From positions 124,001 through 188,000 of the forward strand of contig CANMWQ010000004.1 in NCBI GenBank assembly GCA_947501685.1: a DNA stretch of 64,000 bases, read 5' to 3'. How positions within the stretch are numbered: the stretch's first letter is position 1; the number at the start of each line of letters is the position of its first letter. The position numbers and the translations under genes are program-made. Source of the DNA: an uncultured Litoreibacter sp. (GTDB lineage Bacteria; Pseudomonadota; Alphaproteobacteria; Rhodobacterales; Rhodobacteraceae). The notes beneath the pieces were generated by a model. That model was not told where the DNA came from. It ran no database searches and saw only the letters and a list, made by a program, of their open reading frames with translations. Shown here piece after piece: positions 2,447-33,234 of this stretch.

Positions 2447-2458
2447 CTGATCTCTCCC

Positions 2459-5593: not shown

Positions 5594-6796
5594 TTAGCTT
5601 TCCGAGAATTTCAGCAGCTTGATCGCTGCAAAATCGCTGACATCGCCGCCCACGCGCTTGGTCGCATAGAACAGCACATGCGGCTTGGCGGAGAACGGGT
5701 CACGCAGGATGCGCAAGTCGGGCCGCTCCGCAACGGTGTAGCCCGCGTTGAAATCGCCAAAGGCAATCGCAAAGGCGTCCGCCGCGATGTCGGGCATGTC
5801 TTCCGCGATGAGCACCGGGTAGCCCATCAGGCGCGCAGGCTCTCCGGCGGCCAATCCGTCGGACCACAAGAAGCGGCCATCCGCGTCCTTCATTTTGCGA
5901 ACGGCCCCGGCGGTCTTGGAGTTCATCGTGAACGAACCATTCGCGCGGTACTTAGCCCCCAGCGAATAGACCAGCGTGACAACCGCGTCCGCGGCCTCGC
6001 CAGTGGCGAAATCACCCGCCGCACCCGTAGCCGTGTAGCCCAGGCTGCCCCAGGCCCATGTGTCATTTGCCACTGTGGGATGTGTCAGGAAGCCGCGCGG
6101 CTTGTCCACGCCGTCACCGCCGATAAACGATGCCGCCTCAGAGGAGGCGAACTTGTCCGCGATCCGCTTGGCCAGCCAGCCCTCCACGTCAAACGCGCTG
6201 TCATCGAGCAGGCGTTGCGAGGCTTTCGGCAGCGCCGACAGCTCATGCAGCGGGATCGAGATACGCTCGATCTGCGGCGTGTCGGTCTCGACCGCATTGC
6301 CGGTCTCCGAGGCCCAGCCCGCACCCACTTCGGTGTGGTCCACCAGCACTTCAAACGCGGTGCTTTCCACGTTCACAACATTGGCCACGGCTCGCAGCGA
6401 GGCGGTGGAGTTCAGCACCGAGCGGATCGTGTCGGAGGTCTGCGGGTCCACCAGATAGCCGCCATCGGCAGCCACGGCGCTGGAGAGCGCCTTGCCTTCC
6501 AGCTCCAGCCCCCGCAGCGCGTCGTCATCGCCGGACCGCAGATAGGCGTTGAACGCCTTTTGATGCGGTGCGCCTGCCTCCACAGCCGAGGAGAGCGCCG
6601 GACGGGCGCGGGAAATAGTTTTGCGGTCGAGATGGGTCATGCGGTCTTCCTGTTGCTTCAGTCGGGATTTGATATCGGCCTGAAAGCTGCTGAAATCGGT
6701 CAGAAAACCGCTCATCTCAGCCGCCAGGTCCATGGGTTGGGACGGAACGGCAGGCAAAGGCCCGTCGTTCCGGGACTTGGTCTCGGGGTTGCTCAT
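5594..6796 (-). CDS. GTA major capsid protein gp5 (HK97 fold)
   Basis: 400-aa HK97-type major capsid protein, homologous to RcGTA g5. An N-terminal ~110-residue scaffold-like delta domain with coiled-coil character (FQADIKSRLKQQEDRMTHLD) is followed by the capsid core, including the family-typical stretches AAFNAYLRSGD-like (here KAFNAYLRSGDDDALRGLE), DGGYLVDPQTS and ASQRLLDDSAFDVEGWLA. The upstream protease gene is the maturation enzyme expected to remove the N-terminal part. Full length; ordered directly between protease and connector as in other GTAs. Confidence 0.95.
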   Translation of the reverse strand: MSNPETKSRNDGPLPAVPSQPMDLAAEMSGFLTDFSSFQADIKSRLKQQEDRMTHLDRKTISRARPALSSAVEAGAPHQKAFNAYLRSGDDDALRGLELEGKALSSAVAADGGYLVDPQTSDTIRSVLNSTASLRAVANVVNVESTAFEVLVDHTEVGAGWASETGNAVETDTPQIERISIPLHELSALPKASQRLLDDSAFDVEGWLAKRIADKFASSEAASFIGGDGVDKPRGFLTHPTVANDTWAWGSLGYTATGAAGDFATGEAADAVVTLVYSLGAKYRANGSFTMNSKTAGAVRKMKDADGRFLWSDGLAAGEPARLMGYPVLIAEDMPDIAADAFAIAFGDFNAGYTVAERPDLRILRDPFSAKPHVLFYATKRVGGDVSDFAAIKLLKFSES

Positions 6797-6842
6797 TGGG
6801 TCACCTCAATGCGTGTTGAAAATGGTCGAAAGGAAGCCTGCG

Positions 6843-7409
6843 TTACTCCGCAAGCGAGCAGCGAAGGGTCCGCAGGACCCCCGCCAAATTCTGTGCCAGT
6901 TCCGGGTCCGGCAGCTCCGATTTGCTGGCCTCCGGCGCGCTGCCAATACGGGCCTCGGGTAGCATCGGGAAAGTCACCAAAGACACCTCCCACAGCTCCA
7001 GCTCCGCCAGTTGGCGATGCCCCTTGGCGTCGCGGTCGGCCTTGATCGTGCGGTAGCCAATCGACAGCCCGTCAATCGCCCCCGCCTCGATCAGCGTCGC
7101 GGCCTCCCGGCCCCGCTGCGTGTCGGTCAAAAGGCGGCCCTTGACGAACAGCCCCTTGCCGTCCTCGCGCACCTCGTCCCAGACGCCAATCGGTTGGCCC
7201 GGATCGTGCTGCCATAACAGCTTCACCCGCGTGCCCGCCGCCTTCAGCCGCGACAATGAGGCCGCGTAAGCCCCCTTCATCACGACATCGCCGCCCTGAT
7301 CCGCCTGCCCAAACAGCGAGGCATAGCCCGAGATCGAGGCATCCGCGCCCAGTTCTAATTGATCAGTAATCACGCAATATTTGCGCTCAAGTTCCGGTGT
7401 GCCGATCAT
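6843..7409 (-). CDS. GTA prohead protease gp4
   Basis: 188-aa HK97-family (peptidase family S78) prohead maturation protease, homologous to RcGTA g4. The beginning ISGYASLFGQADQGGDVV, the putative catalytic His in VKLLWQHDPGQPIG and the catalytic Ser in DGLSIGYRT are all present, so it should be active in trimming the capsid protein. Start ATG overlaps the stop of gp3.5 (ATGA at 7406-7409). Confidence 0.93.
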   Translation of the reverse strand: MIGTPELERKYCVITDQLELGADASISGYASLFGQADQGGDVVMKGAYAASLSRLKAAGTRVKLLWQHDPGQPIGVWDEVREDGKGLFVKGRLLTDTQRGREAATLIEAGAIDGLSIGYRTIKADRDAKGHRQLAELELWEVSLVTFPMLPEARIGSAPEASKSELPDPELAQNLAGVLRTLRCSLAE

Positions 7410-7657
7410 CCGCCAGCCCCTCCCAATAATCCTGTGACAGTTTCGCTCAGCACCGCCGCGGTGACGCCGAAAATGGTGAACCAGACGCGCCGCTCCAGCC
7501 GCTCCAGCATCACTTCGATCTGGCCCAGCCGGTATTCCAGCCCGCGCCAGCGCTCGTCATTCACCCGCTCATTGGCCTGCACCATGTCGGCGCTGGCATA
7601 TTCAAACGGCTCATACAGATAGCGCGACCCGCCGGTGCGGTCCTTGCCATCGCTCAC
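7406..7657 (-). CDS. GTA head formation protein gp3.5
   Basis: 83-aa protein matching the small ORF between portal and protease in RcGTA (rcc01685-type 'head formation protein'). It has an amphipathic helix with coiled-coil tendency (LEYRLGQIEVMLERLERRV) and a C-terminal hydrophobic segment (WFTIFGVTAAVLSETVTGLL) that could be a membrane helix. It is joined to both neighbours by four-base ATGA overlaps. Its exact role in head assembly is not known to me. Confidence 0.85.
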   Translation of the reverse strand: MSDGKDRTGGSRYLYEPFEYASADMVQANERVNDERWRGLEYRLGQIEVMLERLERRVWFTIFGVTAAVLSETVTGLLGGAGG

Positions 7658-8817
7658 GGGGCGGCCTCACGCGGCAAGCCCAGCAGAACCCGCTTCTCGC
7701 CGTCGCTCAGGAAAGCTGCCCCCGCAACCCGCGCCCATTGCGCGTCTCGCTCGGAACTCAGCGCTGCAATCTGGTCAAGATCCGGCGCGATCTGTACCGC
7801 CTCCCCGGCCATTTCGCTCAGCCAATGCGACACAGCACCCAGCACTTTATTGGCCAGCGGCAAAACCGTCAGGCGGTAAAACGCCCGGTTGGCCTCCGCG
7901 TAATTGGCGTAGGTCGCATCGCCCGGAATACCCACCAGCATCGGCGGCACACCGAACGCCTGTGCGATCTCTCGCGCGGCCGCGTCCTTGGTCTTTTGAA
8001 ACTCCATATCCGAGGGCGAATAGCCCATCGGCTTCCAGTCCAGCCCGCCTTCCAACAACATCGGCCGGCCCGCGTTGCGCGCGCCTTGATGATGCGCCTC
8101 CATCTCCGATTGCAGACGCTCATATTGCTCGTTGGTCATAGCACCCTGGCCGTCAGCGCCCTTATAGACAATCGCCCCCGAGGGCCGGGCCGCGTTGTCG
8201 AGCAGCGACTTGGTCCAGCGCGACGCCGCATTATGCACATCAATCGCCGTGGCCGCCGCCTGCAAGGGCGACAGCCCGTAATGGTCATCTTGCGGATGGA
8301 AGCTGCGGATATGGCAAATCGGCTGCGCCTCAACCATCGAGAACCGGTGCTTCTTGCCCCCCACCGCATAATCATAGGCCACCGGCCAGCCATCCGAGCC
8401 CGGCACCAGCGACATCCGGTCCGAGCGCAGCACATGCAGCTCGTCCGGCAGCCCGTCGCCCACGGCCTCAAGATAGCCGTTGCCACTCAACAGCAGCTGG
8501 CCATAGAGCGCCTCAAACAGCTCCGAGCGCCCCTGCGCCCCGTTGGGCCGCGAAATCAGCGACAGCACCGGATGCGTGTCAAACCGCTGCCCGTCATCTT
8601 GCAGGATCAACGGCAGGGCGGCGGCGGCCTCCGCCACCATCTTGACCGCCCGAAACCCGACGGGGTTCGAAGAAAACCCGGTCTTGGTCAAAGACACAGT
8701 GTCGCGCGGGCTCCACGCGACCCGGCCCGAGCCGTGCCACGCAATGACCGGCCCCGTCGCGGAGGCCTTCGCCTCCGGCACTTCCGCAGCCCCCCGTTTC
8801 AAAAAGTCAAACACCAT
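7654..8817 (-). CDS. GTA portal protein gp3
   Basis: 387-aa HK97-family portal protein homologous to RcGTA g3; twelve copies form the DNA entry ring at one capsid vertex and contact the terminase. Recognisable motifs are NPVGFRAVKMVAEAAAALPL, LLLSGNGYLEAVGDG and FGVPPMLVGIPGDATYANYAEA near the C-terminal clip/wing. I start it at the ATG at 8817 (GGGAG eight bases upstream); the frame remains open to 8973, but that extension is low-complexity shadow sequence inside the g2 end. Confidence 0.93.
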   Translation of the reverse strand: MVFDFLKRGAAEVPEAKASATGPVIAWHGSGRVAWSPRDTVSLTKTGFSSNPVGFRAVKMVAEAAAALPLILQDDGQRFDTHPVLSLISRPNGAQGRSELFEALYGQLLLSGNGYLEAVGDGLPDELHVLRSDRMSLVPGSDGWPVAYDYAVGGKKHRFSMVEAQPICHIRSFHPQDDHYGLSPLQAAATAIDVHNAASRWTKSLLDNAARPSGAIVYKGADGQGAMTNEQYERLQSEMEAHHQGARNAGRPMLLEGGLDWKPMGYSPSDMEFQKTKDAAAREIAQAFGVPPMLVGIPGDATYANYAEANRAFYRLTVLPLANKVLGAVSHWLSEMAGEAVQIAPDLDQIAALSSERDAQWARVAGAAFLSDGEKRVLLGLPREAAP

Positions 8818-8917
8818 CGCGCCGCTCCCATTCGTTCCAATGCCGTTCGGCCAAAGAAAAAGCCCTCGCGCGCAGATCGCAGCGGGGGCTCGGCCGTAAA
8901 TAAAAATGTCGTTCGTC

Positions 8918-10336
8918 TTAGCGTGGCAAGAGCGTCCGAATGCTCGGATCCGCCGCCACCGCCGCCTTGCCAAGCAACAGCTCGGTCACCGCCCAGACCA
9001 GCGCGTCCAGCCGGTCCGGGCTTCCCGAGCCCCTGAACCCGGTGGGCGTCATCTGGCACATCTCGTCTTCCAATTCGCTCAGGTCGCCGTAATGCAGCAC
9101 CCGTTTTTGTTCGTATAAAGCCGCCACAGGCTCCGCCCGCGTGGCCTTGCCCTTCTGCGCGTGCAGCGCTTTATAAGGCACCGTCGCATCCACCTGCCGC
9201 ATCAGCTGCTCCACCAGCTCGCCGCCTTGGTTCACCTCCGCCACGATCCGGTCCGCGCCGTATTTTTCGGCCATCTCGACGGCGACCTGCGCCCATTCCA
9301 AAGTGCTGCGCCCCCGCGTCGTGGCGTCCTGCAAAACGTAGGCGCGCCAGTCCCGACGGTTCTCGCCAAACGTGGCCCCCACCACCATGATCCCGCAGGC
9401 ATCCGACGATTTGTGGCTGGTCACCGCCGGGTCGACCGCCACGATCACCCGGTCAAACTCGGGCAGCTCCGAGACCCGCAGCTCTTCCAGCATTGAAGCA
9501 TGCCACAGCGCGCCCTCTACATCCTCCAGCATCTCGCCATCCAGCTCCTGGCGTCCCAGCCGCGTGCCGCCATAGCGCGTGCGCACTTCTTCCAGAAAGT
9601 TATCCGCCAGATAGGCCGCATTGGCCTCCGTGGGCGCTGAGGTCTTGACCGTCGAGCTTGCCTCCAGAATACGTTTCAACACCGGCACATTGCGCGGCGT
9701 CGTCGTCACCACCTGCTGCGGATGTTGCCCCAGCCGCAGGCCAAATTGCAGCATGTCCCAGGCCTCTTGGCCCTTGTGCCACTTGCCCAACTCATCCACC
9801 CAAGCCGCGTCAAACTGAGGCCCTCTCAACCCCTCCGGGCTCGACGCAGAGTAGCATTCCGCAATCGCCCCATTGGGCCAGACCAGACGGCGGCGCGTGG
9901 CCTGCCATTCAGGCCGTCGGTCGGGCGGCGAGCAGGCCAGAATGCCGCTATCGCCAAACACCATCACGTCCCGCACCTGATCAAAGGTTTCCCCCACCAG
10001 CGCCACGCGCTTTGCCGCGCCCTCGTCCAGCGGCAGATCCCCCTCAACCATGGAGCGCACCCATTCCGCACCCGCCCGCGTCTTGCCCGCACCGCGCCCA
10101 CCAAGGATCACCCAGGACCGCCAATTGCCGTCGGGCGGCATCTGATGATCCAGCGCCCAGAACTCGAACATATAGGGCAAGGATTGCAAAGCGTTCTCGC
10201 TCAGGCTGGACAGGAAGTCATGCGTCTCCTGCGGCGTCGCGTAGGCGAGCGAGGCGGCGCCCGATCTCAATTCGGGCACACCCGAGGTCGACGGCGTGTT
10301 TGCCAGCTTGGCCAAGGCGTTCGGCGAGCTTTTCAT
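8918..10336 (-). CDS. terL: GTA terminase large subunit gp2
   Basis: 472-aa packaging ATPase/nuclease homologous to RcGTA g2, which fills heads with about 4 kb of host DNA without strong sequence specificity. The Walker A motif GGRGAGKT (K85) and a Walker B-like FDAAWVDELGKW are visible, and the C-terminal RNase H-like nuclease carries acidic motifs (IVAVDPAV; DRLDALVWA). The ATG at 10336 has AGGAGA nine bases upstream, so the 119-bp overlap with the small terminase gene is probably genuine. Confidence 0.95.
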   Translation of the reverse strand: MKSSPNALAKLANTPSTSGVPELRSGAASLAYATPQETHDFLSSLSENALQSLPYMFEFWALDHQMPPDGNWRSWVILGGRGAGKTRAGAEWVRSMVEGDLPLDEGAAKRVALVGETFDQVRDVMVFGDSGILACSPPDRRPEWQATRRRLVWPNGAIAECYSASSPEGLRGPQFDAAWVDELGKWHKGQEAWDMLQFGLRLGQHPQQVVTTTPRNVPVLKRILEASSTVKTSAPTEANAAYLADNFLEEVRTRYGGTRLGRQELDGEMLEDVEGALWHASMLEELRVSELPEFDRVIVAVDPAVTSHKSSDACGIMVVGATFGENRRDWRAYVLQDATTRGRSTLEWAQVAVEMAEKYGADRIVAEVNQGGELVEQLMRQVDATVPYKALHAQKGKATRAEPVAALYEQKRVLHYGDLSELEDEMCQMTPTGFRGSGSPDRLDALVWAVTELLLGKAAVAADPSIRTLLPR

Positions 10337-10655
10337 GGATCTTGGTCTCCTGTAGCATCGAGTTGTTCAGCAGCGGGTCAAAGCGCTTGATAATGTCGTT
10401 GACGCCCTTGTCCTCGACCTTGCCGCGCTCGATATCGCGAATATGCTCTTCGATCGCCTCCTTGAGCCGCCGGAATTGTCCCCGGAAGGTCTCGAGATTG
10501 TCGTCAATCATCTGTGCATAATAATCGCCCGTGCCCTCTTCTGACGCGGGGCTGTCGCGGTCCGGCGCTGTTTGATCGCCGGGGTTTTCGTCCTCAACCT
10601 CTCCTGTCCCCTGCATGCCGTCTTGCGAGGCTGTGTTGTCCATATCGTGGTGCAT
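10218..10655 (-). CDS. GTA terminase small subunit gp1
   Basis: 145-aa protein at the position of RcGTA g1, the small terminase that couples DNA to the large subunit. Residues ~1-45 are acidic and disordered (NTASQDGMQGTGEVEDENPG), residues ~50-110 are helical with coiled-coil character (ETFRGQFRRLKEAIEEHIRDIE). A strong AGGAGG site lies just before the ATG at 10655 and decides the start against the longer frame to 10706. The 3' end overlaps terL by 119 bp. Confidence 0.88.
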   Translation of the reverse strand: MHHDMDNTASQDGMQGTGEVEDENPGDQTAPDRDSPASEEGTGDYYAQMIDDNLETFRGQFRRLKEAIEEHIRDIERGKVEDKGVNDIIKRFDPLLNNSMLQETKIHEKLAERLGQAGKHAVDLGCARIEIGRRLARLRDAAGDA

Positions 10656-10704
10656 CAACGCCTCCTGGTTGCGCTCATCTGAGCGGGAGCAACCTGTCGG
10701 AAAC

Positions 10705-10740
10705 AAAAAAGCGGCGCCGCGCCCTGGGGCCCGTGCCGCT
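10705..10740 (-). terminator. Intrinsic terminator in the GTA leader
   Basis: Read on the minus strand, the stem AGCGGC / GCCGCT, with further GC pairing inside the loop, is followed by six T residues. It lies 50 bp before the g1 start and downstream of the candidate promoter region, so it either ends read-through from mltG or acts as an attenuator that must be overcome for GTA expression. Confidence 0.7.
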
Positions 10741-10890
10741 CAATCATTCCAGTGGCTAACCTGAAATAAGAAAGGCCAGCCCACCATGTCCGGTGCTGCT
10801 GACCCAATTTGTCCATCTTGTCAAAACGTATGCCCGAGACCGTTCGCAGAGTCAATGCATTTCTCGCCAAAACTGAAATTAAATCATTTA

Positions 10891-10905
10891 TTAACAATAG
10901 CTTAA
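10891..10905. promoter_or_regulatory. CtrA-type box upstream of the GTA cluster
   Basis: TTAACAATAGCTTAA is a perfect match to the CtrA consensus TTAA-N7-TTAA, followed by a C as in TTAAC. It lies 236 bp upstream of the g1 start, in the 350-bp non-coding interval between mltG and g1. CtrA is known to be needed for GTA production in several Rhodobacterales; direct binding here is inference. Confidence 0.55.
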
Positions 10906-10959
10906 CGTTAACGCACCGACGGGTGTCGGGCTCGAAAACACCAGAAAACCCTAGCCCAA

Positions 10960-10995
10960 ACCCCTGAAATCTTGGTTAACAACACCCCTGAAATC
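10960..10995. repeat. 12-bp direct repeat between mltG and the GTA cluster
   Basis: The sequence ACCCCTGAAATC occurs at 10960-10971 and again at 10984-10995, 24 bp apart start to start. It lies just after the mltG stop and upstream of the CtrA-type box relative to GTA transcription. Such phasing (about two helical turns) is typical of paired regulator sites, but no regulator can be assigned. Confidence 0.5.
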
Positions 10996-11005
10996 GCACC
11001 GAACG

Positions 11006-12166
11006 CTAGTTATTCGCGTTGCGTTCGGCCTCGATTTTCCGCCACTCCGCGACGTTCGCATTATGCTCCGCAATGGTCACAGCAAAGGCATGACCCCCCG
11101 TCCCGTCCGCCACGAAGAAAATATAGGGCGTCTCGTCGGGATTCAGCGCGGCCTCAATCGCCAGCTTGCCGGGGTTGGCAATCGGTCCGGGCGGCAAGGC
11201 GGGGATCACATAGGTATTATACGCGTTACGCGCCCGCAACTCCGACTGCCGGATGCCGCGCCCCAAACCGTTGCCCACGCCATTGGTCACCCCGTAAATC
11301 ACCGTCGGGTCGGTTTGCAGCTTCATCCCTTGGTTCAGCCGGTTGATGAACACGCTGGCCACCTGCCGACGCTCTTCGGCCACGCCGGTCTCTTTCTCCA
11401 CGATCGAGGCCAGCACCAACGCTTCCTCTTTCGTCTCCAACGGCAGCCCGTCCGCGCGGTTGGCCCAGGCTTCCTCCAGAATACGGGTCTGAGCCTGCGC
11501 CATCCGGTCGAGTATCTCGTCCCGCACAGCCCCACGCTTCACCTCAAAAGTATCCGGCGCCAAGGAGCCCTCCGCAGGCAGCTCACCCACGTCACCCTCA
11601 AGGAAATCCGCGCCCTTCAGCCCTTCGACAATCTGCCAGCTGGTCAGCCCCTCGGCCACGGCCAGCCGGTAGACAATCGGCAGCTCGGCGGCCACAGCCT
11701 CCGTATAGGCCTCAGGCAGCGGATCGCCCGCCTTGAACTCCGCCAGCACCACCTCTTCGCCCGTGCCGGGCGTGCGCTCGCGGAACCGCATCTCGCCGCC
11801 CGTGTTGCGGATCACATAGGTCGCCACATAGCGGAAGGTCGAGGGCCCGCCAGAGGTCACAATGTCAATCACCTCAGCCATCGAGGCCCCGGCCGGGATC
11901 TCGTAATTGCCGAATTTCAGCTCCGACGCCTTGTCGCTATAGCCTGCGCCTATCCGAAAAATCGACGCGTTGCTGATCACGCCTTGGGCCGCCAGCTTTT
12001 CCGACACGGAGCGCAAAGACGCCCCGCGCGGCACCTCAAAGAACGTGGCGCTTTCCAGCGGTCCTTCGGATTTATATTGCGACTGGCCCCAGCCAATCAG
12101 CGCACCGGCCACGAACAGGCCGACGATGCACACCGTCAGAAAATTGGAGGCGATCGACTTCCACAT
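11006..12166 (-). CDS. mltG: Endolytic peptidoglycan transglycosylase MltG
   Basis: 386-aa inner-membrane YceG/MltG protein that cleaves nascent glycan strands and is thought to set their length. An N-terminal signal anchor (residues ~7-27) precedes a LysM-like segment (VPRGASLRSVSEKLAAQG) and the catalytic domain with LASIVEKETG (E257/E259 region) and the family block LQTDPTVIYG. It follows fabF on the same strand with an 8-bp gap, a conserved fabF-mltG pairing. The downstream neighbour in transcription direction is the GTA cluster. Confidence 0.95.
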   Translation of the reverse strand: MWKSIASNFLTVCIVGLFVAGALIGWGQSQYKSEGPLESATFFEVPRGASLRSVSEKLAAQGVISNASIFRIGAGYSDKASELKFGNYEIPAGASMAEVIDIVTSGGPSTFRYVATYVIRNTGGEMRFRERTPGTGEEVVLAEFKAGDPLPEAYTEAVAAELPIVYRLAVAEGLTSWQIVEGLKGADFLEGDVGELPAEGSLAPDTFEVKRGAVRDEILDRMAQAQTRILEEAWANRADGLPLETKEEALVLASIVEKETGVAEERRQVASVFINRLNQGMKLQTDPTVIYGVTNGVGNGLGRGIRQSELRARNAYNTYVIPALPPGPIANPGKLAIEAALNPDETPYIFFVADGTGGHAFAVTIAEHNANVAEWRKIEAERNANN

Positions 12167-12174
12167 ATCTTAGC

Positions 12175-13428
12175 TCACACCTTGCCCATGATCAGGCAGG
12201 CATTCGTCCCGCCAAATCCGAAGGAATTCGACAGCACCACATTCACCTCCCGCTTCACGGCGGCGTTGGCGCAGAGGTTCATCTTGGTCTCCGCCGCCGG
12301 GTTGTCCAGATTGATCGTCGGTGGGCAAATCTGATCCCGGATCGCCAGAATGCAGAAGATCGCCTCAATCGCGCCCGCAGCCCCCAGCAAATGCCCGGTC
12401 ATCGACTTGGTCGACGACATCGCCGTCCCTGCCGCTGCATCGCCCAGCAAACGCTCCACCGCGCCCAGCTCAATCGTGTCCGCCATGGTCGAGGTGCCAT
12501 GCGCATTCACGTAATCAATAGCACTCACATCAATGCCGGCCCGCTTCACCGCCGCCCGCATCGCGCGCTCAGCGCCTTCATGGTCTTCCGGCGGCGCGGT
12601 AATGTGATGCGCGTCGCCAGACAGCCCATACCCCAGCACCTCGGCGTAAATCTTGGCCCCACGTGCCTTGGCGTGCTCATATTCTTCCAACACAACGACG
12701 CCCGCGCCCTCGCCCATCACAAACCCGTCCCGGTCCGCATCCCACGGACGCGAGGCTTTCTGAGGGTCATCAGGATGCCCCGTCGACAGCGCCTTACAGG
12801 CGTTAAACCCGGCAATGCCAATCTCGCAAATCGGGCTCTCCGCTCCGCCTGCAACCATCACATCTGCATCGTCCAATGCAATCAAACGTGCCGCATCGCC
12901 AATGGCATGCGCCCCAGTTGAACAGGCCGTCACCACCGCGTGGTTCGGCCCCTTGAAGCCGTAGCGAATGGACACCTGCCCCGAAACAAGATTGACCAAA
13001 GCGCCCGGAATAAAGAACGGAGACACCCGGCGCGGCCCGCGTTCCTTGATCAGAACCGCCGTCTCGGCAATGGATTGCAGCCCGCCAATCCCCGAGCCGA
13101 TCATAACGCCGGTGCGCTCCAGCGCTTCGCGGTCCTCAGGCTGCCAGCCCGCATCTTCCACAGCCATCTGCGCCGCGGCCATGCCGTAGAGGATAAAATC
13201 ATCAACCTTGCGCGCATCTTTCGCGGACATGAAGGCGTCGGGGTTGAACTCCCCCGCCCCCTCGCCGCGCGGTACTTCGCAGGCATAGCCGGTGCCCAGA
13301 TGCGAGGCGTCAAATTTCTCGATGGTCCGCGCGCCGGATTTGCCGGCCAAAGCGTTCTTCCAGCTTTCCTCCACGCCGCTGCCCAGCGGTGTGACCATGC
13401 CCAATCCTGTAACAACCACTCGACGCAT
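12175..13428 (-). CDS. fabF: 3-oxoacyl-[ACP] synthase II FabF
   Basis: 417-aa KAS II, condensing malonyl-ACP with growing acyl-ACP in fatty-acid elongation. The catalytic Cys is C169 in VTACSTGAH; the two catalytic histidines are in VNAHGTST and MTGHLLGAAG, and the Gly-rich C-terminal NSFGFGGTNA is present. Normal length. It is separated from acpP by two oppositely oriented genes, unlike the common contiguous acpP-fabF order, and probably forms its own transcript with mltG. Confidence 0.97.
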   Translation of the reverse strand: MRRVVVTGLGMVTPLGSGVEESWKNALAGKSGARTIEKFDASHLGTGYACEVPRGEGAGEFNPDAFMSAKDARKVDDFILYGMAAAQMAVEDAGWQPEDREALERTGVMIGSGIGGLQSIAETAVLIKERGPRRVSPFFIPGALVNLVSGQVSIRYGFKGPNHAVVTACSTGAHAIGDAARLIALDDADVMVAGGAESPICEIGIAGFNACKALSTGHPDDPQKASRPWDADRDGFVMGEGAGVVVLEEYEHAKARGAKIYAEVLGYGLSGDAHHITAPPEDHEGAERAMRAAVKRAGIDVSAIDYVNAHGTSTMADTIELGAVERLLGDAAAGTAMSSTKSMTGHLLGAAGAIEAIFCILAIRDQICPPTINLDNPAAETKMNLCANAAVKREVNVVLSNSFGFGGTNACLIMGKV

Positions 13429-24106: not shown

Positions 24107-24558
24107 GCTGCAAGCCCCCCTGCTCGGTTCACTGCCCGAAGGGCCTGGGGATGCGTAACCAGAGGTCAGCTAGGAGCCCAGAGTGAGTGCTCTCAGTCGA
24201 TCTACCCTGCCCGGTTAACAGGCCGCAGGCCCCGGGCATCGCCAGACCGCCCGACAGGGCTGGCGATATGGTGAAGCTGGGTGGGACGAACATTTGGAAG
24301 ATGACCTTGCTGCCATAAAGCTCTGCCGAAAAAGCGTAGCGACGCCATCCCGCGGTCTGGCACTGCCCTCTGTTTTTGGGCGGTCTAAGGTCCGCTGCGA
24401 GCCCAAACCGCATGAGTGCTGCGGAGTGTCAAATGCCCGCTATTGTGAAATCCGATACCTCGATACTCGCGCATCCTCTTACATCGAAGAGATAGTCGGG
24501 ACGGCTTCAGAAAGGAAAGTCTTGATCGAATCATGTGACTCCCATTATTAACTAACAG
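24107..24558. other. Unassigned 450-bp region at the left edge of the island
   Basis: No convincing gene. It contains a 24-bp palindromic segment (CCAG-rich stem around 24241-24264, GCCAGACC to GGCTGGC). A minus-strand frame (24129-24413) reads through a protein-like stretch (SKVIFQMFVPPSFTISPA), but it has no ribosome binding site and its family is unknown to me. It may be an intergenic mobile repeat or a gene remnant left by island insertion. Confidence 0.35.
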
Positions 24559-25818
24559 ATGGTTATTAAACTACGCTCAAGCGCTACACCTGCAAGTTTA
24601 CGGAAAACGCATCGCGGTATGATCCTATCGCGGGTTCAGGCAGAGCCGGGCATCTCGCGGGCAGAACTTGCTCGGATGTGTGGGTTCTCGGAAATGGCCG
24701 CGACCCGTATCGTTAGGGAATTACTGGCCGCTGGGATCATACAAGAGTCTAGTGCAACCGACAAAACCAAAGCGAAGAAGAAGCACGTTGGCCGCCCTAA
24801 AACAGGCCTTCACATTGTGAAAGACGGCCTGTTTGCCGTTGGCATCACCGTTTCTGCTTATCACTCGGAAGTTTCTATTTGCGACGCGGACGGGAAGCTG
24901 TGCGCAAGCAGCCGCCCTGAGAATGTTCCACTTGGTGATGTCGTTGACGCCGCTCGGGTCTATGCCAAGGCGCTGCGTGACTTGATAGAAGTATCTGAGA
25001 TTGATGTTAACCGGATTGTGGGGATCGGGGTGGCGCTGTCTGGCAGGACGCTGCCGGACCGTGCGGAAATCGTGACATCTGATTATTTCGGCTGGGCCAA
25101 TGATGGTGGCCAGTTCTGCCGTGAAATCCAGAAGATCATTGATTTGCCAATCGAGATCGAGAACATCTCGAATGCGCTGGCCATCGCAGAAATGCGGTTC
25201 GGGGGCGCGCGTGATGTGGCAGATTTTACGCTAATTCACGCTGCGACGTTTGTTGGCGCAGGCGTGGTTTCCGACAACCGTTTGGTGCGTGGCGATTCCG
25301 GTATCTCGGGGCTTTTGGGCCACTTTCGCGCAGAAAAACGCGAGCTCACTTGTGTGTGTGGACGGCATGACTGCCTGAACCTGTCCGCGACGGGTTTTGG
25401 TCTGTTGTCGCGGTTGGGCAAGCTGGAGCACCGGGCTTTCCACACCTCGAAGCTGTCGTTTTACGCGGCCTCGCTGCTTGATGCATTGGATGATCCGGAT
25501 GCGGCTCAATTTGTTGCAGAGGCAGGTGAAAAACTTGCGCCTGCGCTGGACAGCACTGCCAAGCTGCTTGGGCCGAAAATGATTACCCTGAGTGGCTATC
25601 TTGGCACGAACGAGACCTACTTTGCGTCCGTTAAGGGCACGCTTGAGCGCCATTTTGACTATGATCCTCAGGGCGCGTTCCAATTGGTGAGGGGCACCAT
25701 TTCCTCTGTGGACGCGGCTGCATTGCTGGCTTTGCACGCGTTTTGCTACTCGGACCGGCTGGATTATGACCGCTTTGCAGATGCCTCCGAGCAGGCGCAT
25801 GGAGTAACCCATGGGTAA
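24559..25818 (+). CDS. ROK family transcriptional regulator of the sulfatase island
   Basis: 419-aa regulator with an N-terminal winged helix-turn-helix (residues ~20-65, ISRAELARMCGFSEMAATRIVREL) and a C-terminal ROK actin-like domain. The zinc-binding cluster is present (H255, then C265-x-C267-x4-C272). Two residues that contact sugar in ROK proteins are missing: the Asp of the ENDxNA motif is replaced (ENISNA) and the Glu of the ExGH motif is Leu (GLLGH). It is therefore neither a sugar kinase nor, probably, a sugar sensor. It is the first gene of a five-gene plus-strand operon and overlaps the permease gene by 8 bp. Codon use is less C-ending than in core neighbours. No clear ribosome binding site. 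Confidence 0.88.
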   Translation: MVIKLRSSATPASLRKTHRGMILSRVQAEPGISRAELARMCGFSEMAATRIVRELLAAGIIQESSATDKTKAKKKHVGRPKTGLHIVKDGLFAVGITVSAYHSEVSICDADGKLCASSRPENVPLGDVVDAARVYAKALRDLIEVSEIDVNRIVGIGVALSGRTLPDRAEIVTSDYFGWANDGGQFCREIQKIIDLPIEIENISNALAIAEMRFGGARDVADFTLIHAATFVGAGVVSDNRLVRGDSGISGLLGHFRAEKRELTCVCGRHDCLNLSATGFGLLSRLGKLEHRAFHTSKLSFYAASLLDALDDPDAAQFVAEAGEKLAPALDSTAKLLGPKMITLSGYLGTNETYFASVKGTLERHFDYDPQGAFQLVRGTISSVDAAALLALHAFCYSDRLDYDRFADASEQAHGVTHG

Positions 25819-27772
25819 GCCGTTGCCATTCAAACCGTTATCTGGCGTCATTGCAGCCGCTGCGGTTCTTTTGGTTGGCCTGACGCTTTACACGGCTTAT
25901 TTCGGTGTCTTTCCCGACGGCATCCAGCGCAGCGCGCATCTTTTGCTTGTGATAATCCTTGTTTTTGGGACGGCTTTTCGAGCGACATTGGATGCTGAAG
26001 ACGACGCTGCGAAAAGGTCTGGTATTTGGCTGCGGCGTGGTTGGATTGTCATTGCCCTGATCGGCGCCTTGATCGCGACCGGCCATCAGTTTTTCAACTT
26101 TGAGGCCATAAACAACCGCTACGGGGCGATCACCCAATACGAGATAGTCTTTGGCACGATGCTCGTTATTTCGCTTTTTGATGCGTGCCGCCGCACGATT
26201 GGGCTGCCGATTGTGCTGCTGGCCAGCCTGTTCATTCTTTATGGTCTTTTTGGCGCTTACTTGCCCGATCCGTTGGCCCATCGGGGCTATTCGCTCAAAC
26301 GGGTTGCGTCGCAGGTGTATCTTGGGGGCGGCGGGATATTTGGCACGCCTCTGGGGGTCAGCGCGACTTTCGTAACTGGCGTGGTTGTTCTGGGCGCTCT
26401 GCTTGAGAAAACCGGAGCGGGACAGGTGTTGATGGATTTCGCCACCGCCCTGACGGGCCGCATGCGCGGCGGGCCAGCGAAGGCGGCGGTGGTCGGGTCC
26501 AGCTTGATGGGTATGATTTCGGGGACGGCGGTGGCCAATGTGCTTACGACTGGCCCAATCTCGATACCTTTAATGCGCAAAAGCGGGTACCGCAAGGAAG
26601 CGGCGGGCGCGATTGAAGCAGTCGCCTCGACCGGTGGGCAGTTGATGCCACCTGTCATGGGGGCCGCGGCGTTTATCATGGCCGAGTTTACAGAGACCTC
26701 TTACCTCACCATCGCCAAGGCCGCGTTCATGCCTGCGGTGATCTTCTACGCCGTGTTGTTGGCGATGGTGCATTTCGAGGCAGCCAAGCGGAAAATCCCA
26801 ATCCTACGCGACGCGGATTCGGTGACGGATTGGGGCTCGATCTTGCGGAATTCGTATCTGCTGATCCCGCTGCCGGTGTTTGTCAGCATGTTGCTCAACG
26901 GCTATTCCATCATGCTGTCGTCCTTCTGGGCCATAGTGGCGTCGTCCTTGGTCAGCTATCTCAACAAATCCACGGCCCTCACGCCGCGCCGTATCGTAGA
27001 TACCTGTGTCGCTGCCGCAAACGCAGTCATTCCGGTGGCTTTGGCCTGCGCCGCGGCGGGGGTGATCATCGGGATCATCACGCTGACGGGGATCGGGCTG
27101 AAGTTCTCGACCCTTGTTGTAGCACTGTCTGGCGGCTCGCTTCCGTTGGCGCTGGTTTTAACCATGCTGACCTGCCTGATCCTTGGCATGGGTTTGCCGA
27201 CGGCGGCCGCTTACATCTTGGTGGCAACATTAGTGGCACCGGCTTTGGTGAACCTTGGCGTCAGCCTGTTGGCCGCGCACCTGTTCGTCCTGTATTCGGC
27301 GATGCTGTCCTCCATCACGCCGCCCGTCGCCCTTGCTGCCTACGCCGCCGCCTCCATCGCGAACGGCAATCCGCTTAAGATTGCGGTGCTGGCCTGCCAG
27401 TTCGGCATGGCGGCATTCGCAGTGCCGTATTTCTTTGTCTACGACCCCGCGATTTTGGGGATCGACGTGACTTGGGTACAAATGGCCATGTCGTTTGTGA
27501 CGGCCATCGTCGGTGGCATTTGCGCGAGTGCCGCAATGCTCGGCCATTTCACCGGACGACTGAACGTCATTGAGCGACTGCTTTTCGCCGCAACTGCGAT
27601 TTTGTTCATGAACTCCGATTGGCGCGTCGACCTTCCCGCCTTTGTCATTCTCGCGGGCCTCGTCGTCTGGACGACACGCCGCGCCTCTCAATCAGCAGAA
27701 CCAGAAAACGTGGCGGGCAGAACCCGCCGGACCAAACACAATAGGGAGACTACCAATGAAACTCGACTTTAA
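25811..27772 (+). CDS. TRAP transporter fused permease (4TM/12TM, TAXI type)
   Basis: 653-aa inner-membrane protein combining the small (DctQ-like) and large (DctM-like) subunits of a TRAP transporter, the arrangement found in TAXI-type systems. Many hydrophobic helices are visible; diagnostic DctM motifs are GTAVANVLTTGPISIPLM, GAIEAVASTGGQLMPPVMGA and LGMGLPTAAAYI with SSITPPVALA. It should drive secondary, sodium- or proton-coupled uptake of the ligand delivered by the TAXI receptor. It overlaps both neighbours (8 bp with ROK, 17 bp with the receptor), so the genes are coupled. Confidence 0.93.
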   Translation: MGKPLPFKPLSGVIAAAAVLLVGLTLYTAYFGVFPDGIQRSAHLLLVIILVFGTAFRATLDAEDDAAKRSGIWLRRGWIVIALIGALIATGHQFFNFEAINNRYGAITQYEIVFGTMLVISLFDACRRTIGLPIVLLASLFILYGLFGAYLPDPLAHRGYSLKRVASQVYLGGGGIFGTPLGVSATFVTGVVVLGALLEKTGAGQVLMDFATALTGRMRGGPAKAAVVGSSLMGMISGTAVANVLTTGPISIPLMRKSGYRKEAAGAIEAVASTGGQLMPPVMGAAAFIMAEFTETSYLTIAKAAFMPAVIFYAVLLAMVHFEAAKRKIPILRDADSVTDWGSILRNSYLLIPLPVFVSMLLNGYSIMLSSFWAIVASSLVSYLNKSTALTPRRIVDTCVAAANAVIPVALACAAAGVIIGIITLTGIGLKFSTLVVALSGGSLPLALVLTMLTCLILGMGLPTAAAYILVATLVAPALVNLGVSLLAAHLFVLYSAMLSSITPPVALAAYAAASIANGNPLKIAVLACQFGMAAFAVPYFFVYDPAILGIDVTWVQMAMSFVTAIVGGICASAAMLGHFTGRLNVIERLLFAATAILFMNSDWRVDLPAFVILAGLVVWTTRRASQSAEPENVAGRTRRTKHNRETTNETRL

Positions 27773-28730
27773 GACCGCAATGCTCGCGATGGCGACGCTT
27801 GCAACACCAACCCTGACCCAAGCCGCTGACTTCCTGTCAATCGGCTCGTGCCCTGTCACATGCACGGCCTACACATGGTCGGCTGGCATCGCGGACGTGA
27901 TCAACAATAACGTCGAAGGCGTACAAGCCACAGCGGAAGAAACCAAAGGCTACGTCGCCAATATCGCCCTGATGCAGGGCGGTGAATTGGAGGCCTCCAT
28001 GGCGACCTCGCTGTCTGCCTACGAAGCATGGGCTGGCACCGGCAATTATGAGGGCACAGAGCCGGGCAAGATCATGGCTTGGATGTCCATCGCACCGGTT
28101 GCGATGCACATTATCGCGCTTGAAGGCGGGCCGGTAAATGCGGTCGCGGACCTGAAAGGCAAGCGCGTCGGCATGGGCCAGCCCGGTGGCGTGTCGATGC
28201 TGGACGCAAACGTGTTGATGGCCAAAATCGCAGGCGAGGATTTCGAGCCCTTCCGCGTGCGCCTTGGCGACATGGTCGACATGCTTAGCGACGGCAATAT
28301 CGACGCGGCACTTTGGAACGGGTCCTTCCCGCTGGCCCCAGTGATCAAGCTGAACGCGCAACGCGATCTGAAGCTCATCCCCATCGAAGACGACTTCTTC
28401 GAGGCCCTGCGCGCCGACTACCCACCGTATTTCCGCCTGTCCATTCCAGCCGGCACTTACGAGGATGTCACCGCTGATACCCCCACATTCGGTTTGGCAA
28501 ATGGCTTGGTTATATCCGCCGATGTACCAGAAGAGCGCGTCTACCAGATGACCAAAGCCGTCTTCGAAAATCTCGAAGCGCTTGCTGGTGTTCACCCTGC
28601 GTTTGGCAAAATGTCGGCCGATACGATCCTGAACGGGTTCGGCTCGCCCCTGCATCCGGGTGCGCTGCGCTACTACCGCGAAATCAATGTGGCTGGCATT
28701 GAGGAATTCGTTACAAGAACAGGCGGTTAA
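27756..28730 (+). CDS. TAXI family TRAP solute-binding protein
   Basis: 324-aa periplasmic receptor with signal peptide (MKLDFKTAMLAMATLATPTLTQA) and the TAXI signature near the N-terminus (FLSIGSCPVTCTAYTWSAGIADVIN) and GKRVGMGQPGGVSMLDANVLM in the middle. ATG at 27756 with AGGGAG upstream; it begins inside the permease gene. Ligands of most TAXI receptors are unknown. Here the following sulfatase suggests a sulfate ester, possibly choline-O-sulfate. A hairpin follows the stop. Confidence 0.9.
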   Translation: MKLDFKTAMLAMATLATPTLTQAADFLSIGSCPVTCTAYTWSAGIADVINNNVEGVQATAEETKGYVANIALMQGGELEASMATSLSAYEAWAGTGNYEGTEPGKIMAWMSIAPVAMHIIALEGGPVNAVADLKGKRVGMGQPGGVSMLDANVLMAKIAGEDFEPFRVRLGDMVDMLSDGNIDAALWNGSFPLAPVIKLNAQRDLKLIPIEDDFFEALRADYPPYFRLSIPAGTYEDVTADTPTFGLANGLVISADVPEERVYQMTKAVFENLEALAGVHPAFGKMSADTILNGFGSPLHPGALRYYREINVAGIEEFVTRTGG

Positions 28731-28744
28731 AACCGTCTCTCCCG

Positions 28745-28779
28745 CCCACCCGGGCCGTCACGTTGGCGGCTTGGGTGGG
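28745..28779 (+). other. Hairpin after the TAXI receptor gene
   Basis: CCCACCC (28745-28751) pairs with GGGTGGG (28773-28779), with an inner GCC/GGC step. There is no U-tract, so it is more likely a 3' mRNA stabiliser or processing site for the receptor transcript than a terminator. Confidence 0.55.
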
Positions 28780-28802
28780 ATTTCCACATCAAGGATCCTG
28801 CC

Positions 28803-30365
28803 ATGTCCCGCCCAAACATTCTTGTCATTCAAGCCGACCAAATGACCGCCCTTTGCCTGTCCGCCTACGGCAAGCCTTATGCGATCACGCCAAACATCGA
28901 CAAGATTGCGCAAAATGGCACGACATTCACCAACAGCTATTGCAACAATCCGGTTTGCGGTCCGTCGCGTGCCTCGATGATGACGGGGCGGTTGCCGTCA
29001 GATGTGGGCGTCTTCGACAATGGCGCCGAGTTTTTGCCGTCCGAGCCGACCTTCGCCCACTACTTGCGCGCGCTCGGCTATAAAACAACTTTGTCGGGCA
29101 AAATGCACTTCGTCGGCCCCGACCAGCTTCACGGTTTTGAGGAGCGCGTGACGACGGATATTTACCCGTCCGATTTTGCATGGACCGCCGATTGGGAACA
29201 GACGGACGAGCCTTATGCCCCTTCAGTGATGAGCCTTCTCAGCGTGGTCGAAGCGGGCCATTGCGAACGGAACCTCCAGATAGACTACGACGAGGAAGTC
29301 TTCGCCGCCGCGAAACAAGAAATGTACAACCATGCCCGGTCCACCGATGACCGACCCTTCATGCTGCATGTGTCCTTCACCCAGCCGCACAATCCCTTCG
29401 TGGCGGGCAAGAAATATTGGGACATGTATGAGGGCGTCGATATCCCGGAGCCAGAAGTTGCCCACATCCCCTACGAGGATCGCGACCCTTGGGCGCAGCG
29501 TTATTACCTTACCATCCGGCAGGACGAATTCGACATTACGCCAGAACAGTTGTACAACGCACGGCGCGGCTATTTCGCCATGTGCACCCATTTCGATGAA
29601 ATGATTGGCGGTCTGGTGGAAACACTTGAGAGTATAGGTGAGTTGGAAAACACCTACATCTTCATCACGTCCGACCACGGCGAAATGCTGGGCGAGCGCG
29701 GCATGTGGTTCAAGTTCAACCCCTTCGAGGCCTCGGTGCGCGTGCCCCTCCTTGCGCAGGGTCCAAAGTTGAAAGCTGGCCACCGCGAAGACGCCTTGGC
29801 CTCGCTTGTGGACTTGTTGCCAACCTTCACCGACATCGCCAGCGACGGCACGTTTGACAGCTATGTAGCGCCTTATGACGGCCGCAGCTTGCTCGATCTG
29901 CCCAAGCGCGGCAGCGCTGATGATAAGGTTTTCATCGAGTTCAACGGCGAGGGGCTTTATGCGCCTGCGATGATCATGATCAAGGGCAACCTGAAACTGG
30001 TTCACAGCCGCACCGATCCGAAAATGCTCTTTGATCTGGCGGCTGACCCCCTTGAGCTGACCAATTTGGCAGGTGATCCCACTTACCGCGATGACCTTAA
30101 CGCGATGTTTGCCGAAATGCAGGAGCGTTGGGACGAGGACGATCTGGACCAGCGCATAAGAGCATCCCAACGCAAACGCTTGTTCGTCCACGATGCTATG
30201 AAACATGGACGCTTTCCATCTTGGGATTTTGGACCAAATTACGATCCGTCCAAGGTCTATGTCCGGGGTGGCAACGATCCCAGCACCACCGCCACCAAGC
30301 AGCGCGGGCGCTATCCCTATGTGCCGGTCACGCCGCCGCAGCATCCAAGGCAAAGCAAGAAGTAG
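28803..30365 (+). CDS. Choline-sulfatase-like (BetC-type) sulfatase
   Basis: 520-aa type I sulfatase without a signal peptide, so cytoplasmic. The formylglycine precursor is C52 in VCGPSRASMMTGR (CxPSR). Stretches closely resembling rhizobial choline-sulfatase BetC include SGKMHFVGPDQLHGFEER followed by TTDIYPSDF, SDHGEMLGERGMWFK, LFDLAADPLELTNLA and a C-terminal RASQRKRLFVHDAMKHG tail. Expected reaction: choline-O-sulfate to choline plus sulfate; other sulfate esters remain possible. Located between the TRAP transporter and its presumed activating enzyme, a formylglycine-generating protein. No betA/betB genes are nearby. Confidence 0.85.
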   Translation: MSRPNILVIQADQMTALCLSAYGKPYAITPNIDKIAQNGTTFTNSYCNNPVCGPSRASMMTGRLPSDVGVFDNGAEFLPSEPTFAHYLRALGYKTTLSGKMHFVGPDQLHGFEERVTTDIYPSDFAWTADWEQTDEPYAPSVMSLLSVVEAGHCERNLQIDYDEEVFAAAKQEMYNHARSTDDRPFMLHVSFTQPHNPFVAGKKYWDMYEGVDIPEPEVAHIPYEDRDPWAQRYYLTIRQDEFDITPEQLYNARRGYFAMCTHFDEMIGGLVETLESIGELENTYIFITSDHGEMLGERGMWFKFNPFEASVRVPLLAQGPKLKAGHREDALASLVDLLPTFTDIASDGTFDSYVAPYDGRSLLDLPKRGSADDKVFIEFNGEGLYAPAMIMIKGNLKLVHSRTDPKMLFDLAADPLELTNLAGDPTYRDDLNAMFAEMQERWDEDDLDQRIRASQRKRLFVHDAMKHGRFPSWDFGPNYDPSKVYVRGGNDPSTTATKQRGRYPYVPVTPPQHPRQSKK

Positions 30366-30387
30366 GCTGGATTGCTAGGGGCCAGAG

Positions 30388-30438
30388 ATGTTTAATACGC
30401 GCAGTATATCCATGAAACGGACCCTGTCGGCGCGATGA
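30388..30438 (+). CDS. Possible 16-codon leader ORF coupled to the FGE gene
   Basis: ATG at 30388 with AGGGG about seven bases upstream opens a short frame (MFNTRSISMKRTLSAR) whose TGA overlaps the ATG of the next gene (ATGA at 30435-30438). The FGE start has no ribosome binding site of its own, so translational coupling through this leader is plausible. Confidence 0.4.
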   Translation: MFNTRSISMKRTLSAR

Positions 30439-31370
30439 AACCCTGCTGCACGCCAAGTCGAGAAACGGCTGGAACGACGCCCGAGCGCGAGGCATTGCCT
30501 CTTGGGCAGCATGTCGTGCGTGACCATGCTGAGGTGGTAAACATTCCAAGTGGGCGCGCGTTGCTAGGTACAGATCTCCCGTTCTTTCCCGTCGATGGCG
30601 AAGGGCCATTGCGCAAAAAGAAAATGCCCGCGTTTCGCATGGACGCGACCACTGTCACCAACACCCAGTTTCGCGATTTTGTGGCTGACACGGGCTATGT
30701 GACGGATGCCGAGCGTTTTGGCGACTCCTTGGTCTTTTCAGATCTTTTGCCAAAAGGAACGCCGCCCAGTCACGCCGTCGCAGATGCGCCTTGGTGGCGG
30801 ATGATCAAGGGTGCCAATTGGCGTGATTTATTTGGACCGGGCACCGCAGATCACCTGATGGACGATCACCCCGTGGTCCACGTCTCGTGGAACGATGCGG
30901 TGGCCTTCGCTGCGTGGACCGGTGGTCGCTTGCCCACGGAGGCCGAATGGGAGCACGCGGCGCGCGGTGGCTTGGGCGATGTGCCGTTCCCATGGGGCGA
31001 TCAAGAGCCTGACGACGCAGACTTCCAACCCTGCAACATCTGGCAAGGCCGGTTTCCGCATCAAGATCTGGCGCTTGATGGATACACCGGAACCGCACCC
31101 GCCCGCAGCTTCGCGCCCAATGCCTACGGTCTTTACAATATGGTCGGTAATGTCTGGGAACTTACGTCAGAATTGTTTAGAGTCCGGTCTCTCAAGAAAG
31201 AAGTGGTCGCAGCCCATGCTGGGAAAAAAGGGTTCAAACTTAGTAAGGGAGGATCGTTCCTGTGCCATCGCAGCTATTGCTACCGATACCGCATCGCGGC
31301 CCGAAACAGCGGTTCACAGGACACCTCAACATCACATACGGGTTTTCGCTTGGTGTATGACGCGGTCTAA
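30435..31370 (+). CDS. Formylglycine-generating enzyme (sulfatase maturase)
   Basis: 311-aa FGE/SUMF1-family oxidase that converts the sulfatase active-site Cys to formylglycine using oxygen and copper. Both catalytic cysteines are conserved: C277 and C282 in KGGSFLCHRSYCYRYR, closely similar to the human SUMF1 site. Other family segments are VHVSWNDAVAFAAWTGGRLPTEAEWEHAARGG and NVWELTSELF (split here around 150-250). No signal peptide, matching the cytoplasmic sulfatase just upstream. ATG at 30435 lacks a ribosome binding site; see the leader ORF. Last gene of the island operon. Confidence 0.9.
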   Translation: MKPCCTPSRETAGTTPEREALPLGQHVVRDHAEVVNIPSGRALLGTDLPFFPVDGEGPLRKKKMPAFRMDATTVTNTQFRDFVADTGYVTDAERFGDSLVFSDLLPKGTPPSHAVADAPWWRMIKGANWRDLFGPGTADHLMDDHPVVHVSWNDAVAFAAWTGGRLPTEAEWEHAARGGLGDVPFPWGDQEPDDADFQPCNIWQGRFPHQDLALDGYTGTAPARSFAPNAYGLYNMVGNVWELTSELFRVRSLKKEVVAAHAGKKGFKLSKGGSFLCHRSYCYRYRIAARNSGSQDTSTSHTGFRLVYDAV

Positions 31371-31739
31371 TTCAATCAGCAGTGACATTGCGGCTTTCAG
31401 CAAGCCGGCATTTCTAAGCCCCTGATGAATGGCCGCTTAGTCCGCAAACCAGCCATACCATCACCCCAGCCGGGCGGGTGCAAGACCGTGGGATGGCGCT
31501 GCAACGGCCTTTCGACAGCACTATATCCCAGCCAAGCACATCTTCCGAATATGTGAAGCGCATCTGCTTCAAAAGCGCCAGCCCGTCAGACCAAAGGTTT
31601 GCCTTTGGCAAAACGGAACGGCCCCTCTCGGCGATTGCGAAGGGCAATCGCCTGTCGGTCAAGGCTTGCGCCGGGTCAACGCATCGAAGAGACTGCTCCG
31701 CCCCGCAATGTCAGCCCTCCAAAACCAACCAACCCAACG
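31371..31739. other. Unassigned region at the right edge of the island
   Basis: About 370 bp without a convincing gene. A minus-strand frame (31414-31662, TTG-start) has a protein-like middle (KQMRFTYSEDVLGWDIVL) but no ribosome binding site, and I do not recognise it. It may be a decayed gene fragment or an intergenic repeat. It separates the island from tig. Confidence 0.35.
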
Positions 31740-33149: not shown

Positions 33150-33234
33150 TGGTGCGGGTGAAGGGACTTGAACCCCCACGCCTTGCGGCGCCAGAACCTA
33201 AATCTGGTGCGTCTACCAATTCCGCCACACCCGC
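33150..33234 (-). tRNA. tRNA-Leu (anticodon UAG)
   Basis: 85-nt class II tRNA with encoded CCA. On the minus strand the acceptor stem GCGGGTG pairs with CACCCGC, followed by discriminator A and CCA. The anticodon arm CCAGA-TTTAGGT-TCTGG shows anticodon TAG, reading CUA/CUN leucine codons. A long variable arm (GCGCCGCAAGGCGT) and the GGTTCAAGTCC T-arm fit tRNA-Leu. It lies 23 bp upstream of tig on the same strand. Confidence 0.97.

Follow-up and report, generated by a model that had tools for sequence, protein, structure and literature searches.

The sulfatase considered here has its closest described counterpart in the choline-sulfatase BetC of S. meliloti (PDB 6fny, 6g60 and 7pth; SulfAtlas S1_12; TIGR03417). 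As set out in the accessible portion of PMC9063841, Trp129 and His145 of a hairpin with the pattern GW-X13-WYHN clamp choline, and Asn146 and Asp500 of the neighbouring subunit gate the site. The accessible portion of PMC5870055 reports that the change E386L costs 5.1 kcal/mol on choline sulfate and brings a slight gain on nitrophenyl sulfate; nevertheless, PMC9063841 disputes that residue 386 holds the ammonium. In the Roseobacter group, the bet cluster presented in excerpts of PMC12442346 and PMC4744692 includes BetT, BetC, BetB, BetA and BetI, and the excerpt of PMC10132767 names BetT, BetC and an ethanolamine TRAP receptor, and no TAXI system. Few ligands are known for TAXI receptors, and those given in the available part of PMC12344293 are carboxylates, e.g., glutamate, 2-oxoglutarate and phthalate. 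In the glutamate receptor VcGluP, residues Y45, S75, Q93, E125, Y200 and M201 have been mutated, and Y45 and Q93 mattered most (PMC11574862, in part). A literature search that left most subscription journals aside returned no paper joining "TAXI family" and "sulfatase".

The locus described in this work lies in a window of 64,000 nucleotides (G000:C4:124001-188000) from an uncultured Litoreibacter sp., whose genome comprises 3.3 Mb in 16 contigs. Five genes occupy positions 24559-31370 of the plus strand, with rplI on one side of the cassette and tig on the other. The first one (P0001, 24559-25818) encodes a ROK-family transcriptional regulator (PF13412 and PF00480, the latter with 110 bits), and it overlaps by 8 bases with the gene for a fused TRAP permease DctQM (P0002, 25811-27772; TIGR02123, 616 bits against a cut-off of 321). 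This gene overlaps in turn by 17 bases with that of a TAXI solute receptor (P0003, 27756-28730; TIGR02122, 246 bits, cut-off 84), which is followed by a choline-sulfatase-like sulfatase (P0004, 28803-30365) and by a formylglycine-generating enzyme, FGE (P0005, 30435-31370; PF03781, 243 bits, cut-off 23). The genes and their position are thus confirmed: the sequence-only reading had described five plus-strand genes of which the first three overlap, as coordinates and family scores bear out, and it had taken them for a single unit, which holds as well, the unit consisting of a regulator, an importer, a genuine FGE and a sulfatase that seems to lack a signal peptide. The fusion of the permease is usual as such, since a whole NCBIfam subfamily of this kind exists. 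Beyond the right side of the cassette, a tRNA-Leu gene (33150-33234, minus strand) adjoins tig.

The sulfatase is homologous to S. meliloti BetC over its full length (428 bits), by which the fold is shared, and it exceeds the cut-off of the NCBI choline-sulfatase equivalog model TIGR03417 (590 versus 433 bits). Its N-terminus, MSRPNILVIQADQ, read by eye, has no apparent signal peptide, and therefore the enzyme should be cytoplasmic. The CxPxR motif of BetC is represented by CGPSR (28956-28970, plus strand; Cys52), a sequence found in 14 of 14 full-length orthologues of the cassette enzyme, to which this count is limited; the strict motif pattern missed 21 of the 79 sequences aligned. The ten catalytic or metal-binding positions of BetC, i.e., D14, C54, N75, K102, H104, H201, D296, H297, K309 and E386, are all kept, as they are in 71 of the 79 aligned relatives, E386 included. 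On the other hand, the hairpin at positions 142-146, which reads WWYHN in 18 of 19 control BetCs from the Rhodobacteraceae and KWYHN in the other one, is replaced in the cassette enzyme by PSVMS (residues 140-144; 29220-29234, plus strand). The same five letters are present in the 14 full-length orthologues and in one split copy (L048), i.e., in all 15 loci of the cassette. Set against GW-X13-WYHN, the sequence is AW...PSVMS, where W129 is kept, H145 has become M and N146 has become S; W129, Y123 and E386, residues in contact with choline or of importance for it, are conserved. The C-terminal tail region of BetC is also present, whereas its positions 494, 495, 499 and 500 read RGPS in the cassette orthologues, RNLD in S. 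meliloti and RNLN in the 18 WWYHN controls, so that N495 and L499 correspond to G and P. At the gatekeeper position Asp500 the cassette enzyme has Ser and all 18 of these controls have Asn; for this reason Asp500 is no test within the BetC-like family, the gate argues against choline only through Asn146, and the informative change is the loss of His145 together with Asn146. Given that the parts that grip choline are changed, the enzyme probably acts on a compound other than choline-O-sulfate.

In a midpoint-rooted FastTree phylogeny the cassette sulfatases form a clade of their own (local support 1.0). Their sister is the enzyme of locus L049 (hairpin PSGMS, 52% identity; node support 0.995), and both fall outside the clade of WWYHN and KWYHN sequences (support 1.0). 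The tree includes neither the split sulfatase of L048, whose ends are missing and which was counted for synteny and hairpins, nor L009, a truncated copy of the sulfatase gene of the window. The closest named record, with 98% identity, is from Litoreibacter meonggei. Three comparisons, of which two are at high dS, give dN/dS values of 0.03-0.045 for the gene, which is thus under purifying selection. In the 79 aligned relatives the five hairpin letters take 17 different forms; many of these relatives were picked by similarity to the cassette sulfatase, so that proportions mean little. A further sulfatase that lacks WYHN, the second one of locus L055, passes TIGR03417 with 529 bits, and from the aligned sequences this model seems to bring together several kinds of leaving-group pocket. 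As regards the formylglycine motif, the L049 enzyme carries CASSR and its host has no FGE match. Two more sulfatase-family proteins of the Litoreibacter genome (L013, positions 1910-3619 on G000:C6, and L004 on C4) have CGASR instead of CxPxR; the one of them that was scanned is PehA-like, below the cut-off.

The same genome has a second BetC-like gene (C1:467726-469216), whose product is 43% identical to the cassette sulfatase and reaches 896 bits on TIGR03417. This canonical BetC is encoded 1.5 kb from betB and betA, both above their cut-offs, and the cell therefore has the standard choline-O-sulfate pathway elsewhere. Profile searches detected none of betA, betB and betI in the cassette. 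Like the Roseobacter-group bet cluster (PMC12442346, PMC4744692, as far as the excerpts go), the cassette combines transport with a cytoplasmic sulfatase of the same family; unlike it, the cassette has a ROK protein in place of the TetR-type BetI, a TAXI-TRAP system in place of BetT and an FGE of its own, it lacks BetA and BetB, and a separate bet cluster exists in the genome. The sequence-only reading had put forward choline-O-sulfate as substrate. This proposal is not supported, in view of the separate clade, the lost His145 and Asn146 and the canonical BetC elsewhere in the genome; choline-O-sulfate was rejected as the best reading on pocket residues, canonical paralogue and gene context.

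The TAXI receptor resembles VcGluP (8s4j) and TtGluBP (1us4) in that it scores above the family cut-off (131-149 bits to these proteins) and is paired with an adjoining TRAP permease. It differs from them in its fused permease, in its sulfatase neighbour and in the ligand contacts: residues Y45, S75, Q93, E125, Y200 and M201 of VcGluP correspond to A, Y, T, V, W and N, i.e., none of the six is kept. The same six replacements are found in 15 of 15 loci, among receptors that are 77-98% identical. The receptor is therefore not of the VcGluP glutamate type and has a conserved pocket of its own, and glutamate was rejected as its ligand. A predicted structure, with a mean pLDDT of 38 from 12 close sequences, was useless. 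A second, unrelated run of TAXI, permease and sulfatase genes is present in this genome (L011, G000:C9, 7097-11661, minus strand); its receptor is 23% identical to that of the cassette, and its sulfatase has the motif CMPNR and remains below all NCBI cut-offs.

The FGE of the cassette aligns with residues 30-309 of the human enzyme (301 bits) with the motif CHRSYCYRYR intact. Like human SUMF1 and bacterial FGEs, it shows a full-length match and both active-site cysteines, in addition to the PF03781 domain; its sequence has no notable peculiarity, and the difference is that it sits in a mobile unit. It is the only PF03781 match in the genome. The model of the anaerobic sulfatase maturase found no match there, by which this enzyme was ruled out as an alternative activator. 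A strong FGE (E at most 1e-55) is encoded in 7 of 7 genomes with the cassette versus 89 of 394 overall (hypergeometric p 2.5e-5). Likewise, it was found in 1 of 18 genomes with a canonical BetC versus 17 of 25 in which the hairpin is of another type (Fisher p 3.6e-5), a comparison of hand-picked, not random, genomes that may hold further copies and in which relatedness and genome size are uncontrolled. A BetC-like gene (E 1e-80) occurs in 297 of the 394 genomes, so that at least 208 of them have such a gene and no strong FGE, and of 30 genomes checked with the anaerobic maturase model, only 1 had a match over the cut-off. Since FGE is mostly absent and the maturase so rare, the canonical BetC of Rhodobacteraceae-family genomes with no strong FGE may use an unrecognised activator. 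A cassette that brings its own FGE presumably need not depend on a new host for activation.

The regulator has a winged helix and a ROK domain (PF13412 and PF00480), and its nearest models are NagC and Mlc. In the alignment, the Glu of the ExGH motif, which we take to be a sugar contact, is replaced by Leu. The DNA upstream of the ROK gene is mostly unalignable across 13 loci, save for a block with an imperfect dyad of 25 bp at its end, which lies across the ROK start codon (24545-24569, plus strand; TTATTAACTAACAGATGGTTATTAA in the window). The dyad is conserved in these 13 loci, with a weaker match in L055, and it is the single site with three or fewer mismatches in the genome, where the reversed control pattern has none; the operator matrix was built from 12 of the sites scored with it. 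The conservation of the dyad and its uniqueness in the genome suggest that the ROK protein autoregulates the cassette operon alone through this predicted operator. A generic promoter scan gave 4 sites versus 2.8 in shuffled sequences.

The distribution of the cassette was addressed with a scan of a genome collection, which returned 76 loci, including 11 with 80-98% identity, and with a family search, in which an orthologue with at least 75% identity was found in 7 of 394 genomes, that of the window included. Both searches combined yielded 15 non-redundant loci (L043, L044 and L045 duplicate L058, L061 and L062 and were left out of the counts). The order permease, TAXI receptor, sulfatase is present in all 15, and it is preceded by ROK in 14; in L055 only residues 145-419 of the regulator are present, and in L048 no ROK was found. 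Such recurrence indicates that the arrangement is more than chance. The FGE gene directly follows the sulfatase in 9 of the 15 loci, at 42% identity in L064 and 67-100% in the other eight. As for the remaining loci, the L060 sequence stops 0.6 kb past the sulfatase, an FGE lies about 10-13 kb off in the same cluster in both L046 and L048, the host of L047 has its FGEs on other contigs, and no FGE was found in the 4.4 and 10 kb behind the sulfatase in L056 and L057. In L048 (8885-11955) a reading frame of 474 amino acids has been inserted into the cassette sulfatase gene and divides it, and this cassette looks decayed.

In four loci (L046, L047, L048 and L055) the cassette is accompanied by genes for a GMC oxidoreductase, an aldehyde dehydrogenase and a second BetC-like sulfatase, although the aldehyde dehydrogenase match of L047 is partial and the second sulfatase of L048 has an internal stop. 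In all three second sulfatases that were aligned, Ile takes the place of E386, and the GMC protein of L055 scores 474 against a betA cut-off of 732. An enolase-superfamily gene is located near all four loci, with weak matches to sugar-acid dehydratases, far under every curated cut-off. Beside it, a GntR-type gene was detected by Pfam in the G055 locus, and similar reading frames exist in G184 and G201. These genes would fit a conversion of an alcohol to an aldehyde and then to an acid after desulfation. In the genome of the window, the best GMC protein is 44% identical and the best enolase-superfamily protein 31%, and no second sulfatase of this type was found at E 1e-150; this pathway thus has no close copy here, and a distant GMC protein could serve instead. 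In another locus, L063, known from one MAG contig, the FGE is followed by a class-III transaminase that passes a subfamily cut-off and by a gamma-glutamyl-ligase-like protein below all cut-offs, and L049 is divergent from a betaine/choline-type ABC transporter. Relatives of the second sulfatases (47-48% identity) occur in L141, L142 and L143 (G073, G059 and G201:C52) beside a TctC-type tripartite tricarboxylate transporter and a calcineurin-like phosphoesterase, with a distant ROK in L141 and L143; they show the same design as the cassette with another importer.

Several features of the locus concern its mobility. The segment 24399-31439 is 93.5% identical over 7044 bp to positions 5594-12636 of the L. 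meonggei locus L054, which is at another site, as no rpsF, rplI or tig was found in the 21.6 kb of it examined. In a congener (G171) and in two other genera (G251 and G055), rplI and tig are 1.5-2.8 kb apart and island-free, and G251 and G055 carry the cassette at another place; no tig was detected in the stretches examined of G125 and G332. The insertion between rplI and tig noted from the sequence alone is thus corroborated, as is the deviating codon use, with GC3 values of 0.60-0.70 in the island versus 0.75-0.79 in rpsF, rplI, tig and glnA, although as a sign of acquisition this is modest evidence. Both ends of the cassette touch copies, in opposite orientation, of a repeat dispersed in the genome. 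The left copy (24205-24407) is one of 14 genome matches, and the right one (31464-31562) is 75% identical to it over 73 bp and 87% identical over 99 bp to the copy at L181; copies are also found at L178-L184. The repeat spans 150-200 bp, its inner ends are inverted (CGCCAGACCGC...GCGGTCTGGCG), and over 210 nt it is predicted to fold very stably (-84.5 kcal/mol). Furthermore, two Granulosicoccus MAGs have a block of 6948 bp in common with the cassette at 95% identity, and where their flanks match, identity is 83-84% and the order differs, with the exception of a 292-bp piece at 76%. This comparison suggests that the cassette has moved between classes, although both Granulosicoccus carriers are MAGs.

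From these sequence comparisons, the cassette is probably (we would put it at roughly 0.6) a mobile, self-regulated module for the uptake and desulfation of one small sulfate ester, which is probably not choline-O-sulfate. In the periplasm the ester would be captured by the TAXI receptor and passed to the fused permease for import; in the cytoplasm, the sulfatase, made active by conversion of Cys52 into formylglycine by the FGE of the cassette, would split it into sulfate and an alcohol, and the ROK protein, seated on the dyad across its start codon, would keep the operon repressed as long as no ligand releases it. It is also conceivable that receptor and sulfatase have no substrate in common, the former importing a carboxylate, as the TAXI ligands given in part of PMC12344293 would have it, and the latter scavenging sulfur on its own; nevertheless, both genes adjoin in 15 of 15 loci and a second, unrelated run of the same kind exists in this genome, which make this the most improbable account of those considered here. 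It is unlikely as well that the cassette is another choline-O-sulfate system, in which a TAXI importer would serve an alternative choline sulfatase: the TIGR03417 and BetC scores, the conserved W129 and E386 and the betaine-type ABC transporter beside the sister enzyme speak for it, the last of these being partly at odds with a distance from choline, whereas the loss of His145 and Asn146 in every locus, the presence of a canonical BetC together with betB and betA at another place in the genome and a cassette devoid of betA, betB and betI speak against it.

Within the preferred reading, that of a module for a sulfate ester other than choline-O-sulfate, the neighbouring genes point to two kinds of substrate. 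The ROK and enolase families suggest a sugar, and in a version that falls within the same odds the ester would be a sulfated sugar or polyol, the ROK protein would sense a sugar and the alcohol would be oxidised by the GMC protein and the aldehyde dehydrogenase before an enolase-superfamily enzyme acts on it. The proximity of NagC and Mlc and the enolase-superfamily gene near 4 of 4 extended loci agree with such a route; against it, the Glu presumed to contact sugar is Leu, the extra genes exist in only 4 of 15 loci and the enolase-family matches are far below any curated cut-off, so that we hold it for a doubtful version, if the least unlikely of the specific alternatives. The transaminase and ligase genes of L063 and the ABC transporter of L049 suggest an amine instead. 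A dedicated route for an amino-alkyl sulfate, e.g., ethanolamine-O-sulfate or a methylated homologue, is proposed very tentatively, as slightly less probable than the sugar or polyol and slightly more so than a second choline system, because the trimethylammonium clamp of BetC is gone and the charge residue E386 is kept, because the closest sister enzyme, that of L049, is encoded next to a betaine-type importer, and because the L063 genes lie behind the FGE. No paper on ethanolamine-O-sulfate and a bacterial sulfatase was found in the literature search. If the amino-alkyl reading is true, the cassette would include a TAXI transporter for an organosulfate, and its sulfatase would be one of several unrecognised specificities filed as choline-sulfatase.

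Each component of the cassette is known, and what is new is their combination and the changed pockets. The cassette names an importer, an enzyme, an activator and a regulator for one organosulfate, which makes a ligand screen of the TAXI receptor direct. If the hairpin sets specificity, the residue pattern would give a simple test, and part of the choline-O-sulfate degradation annotated in marine genomes would be something else.
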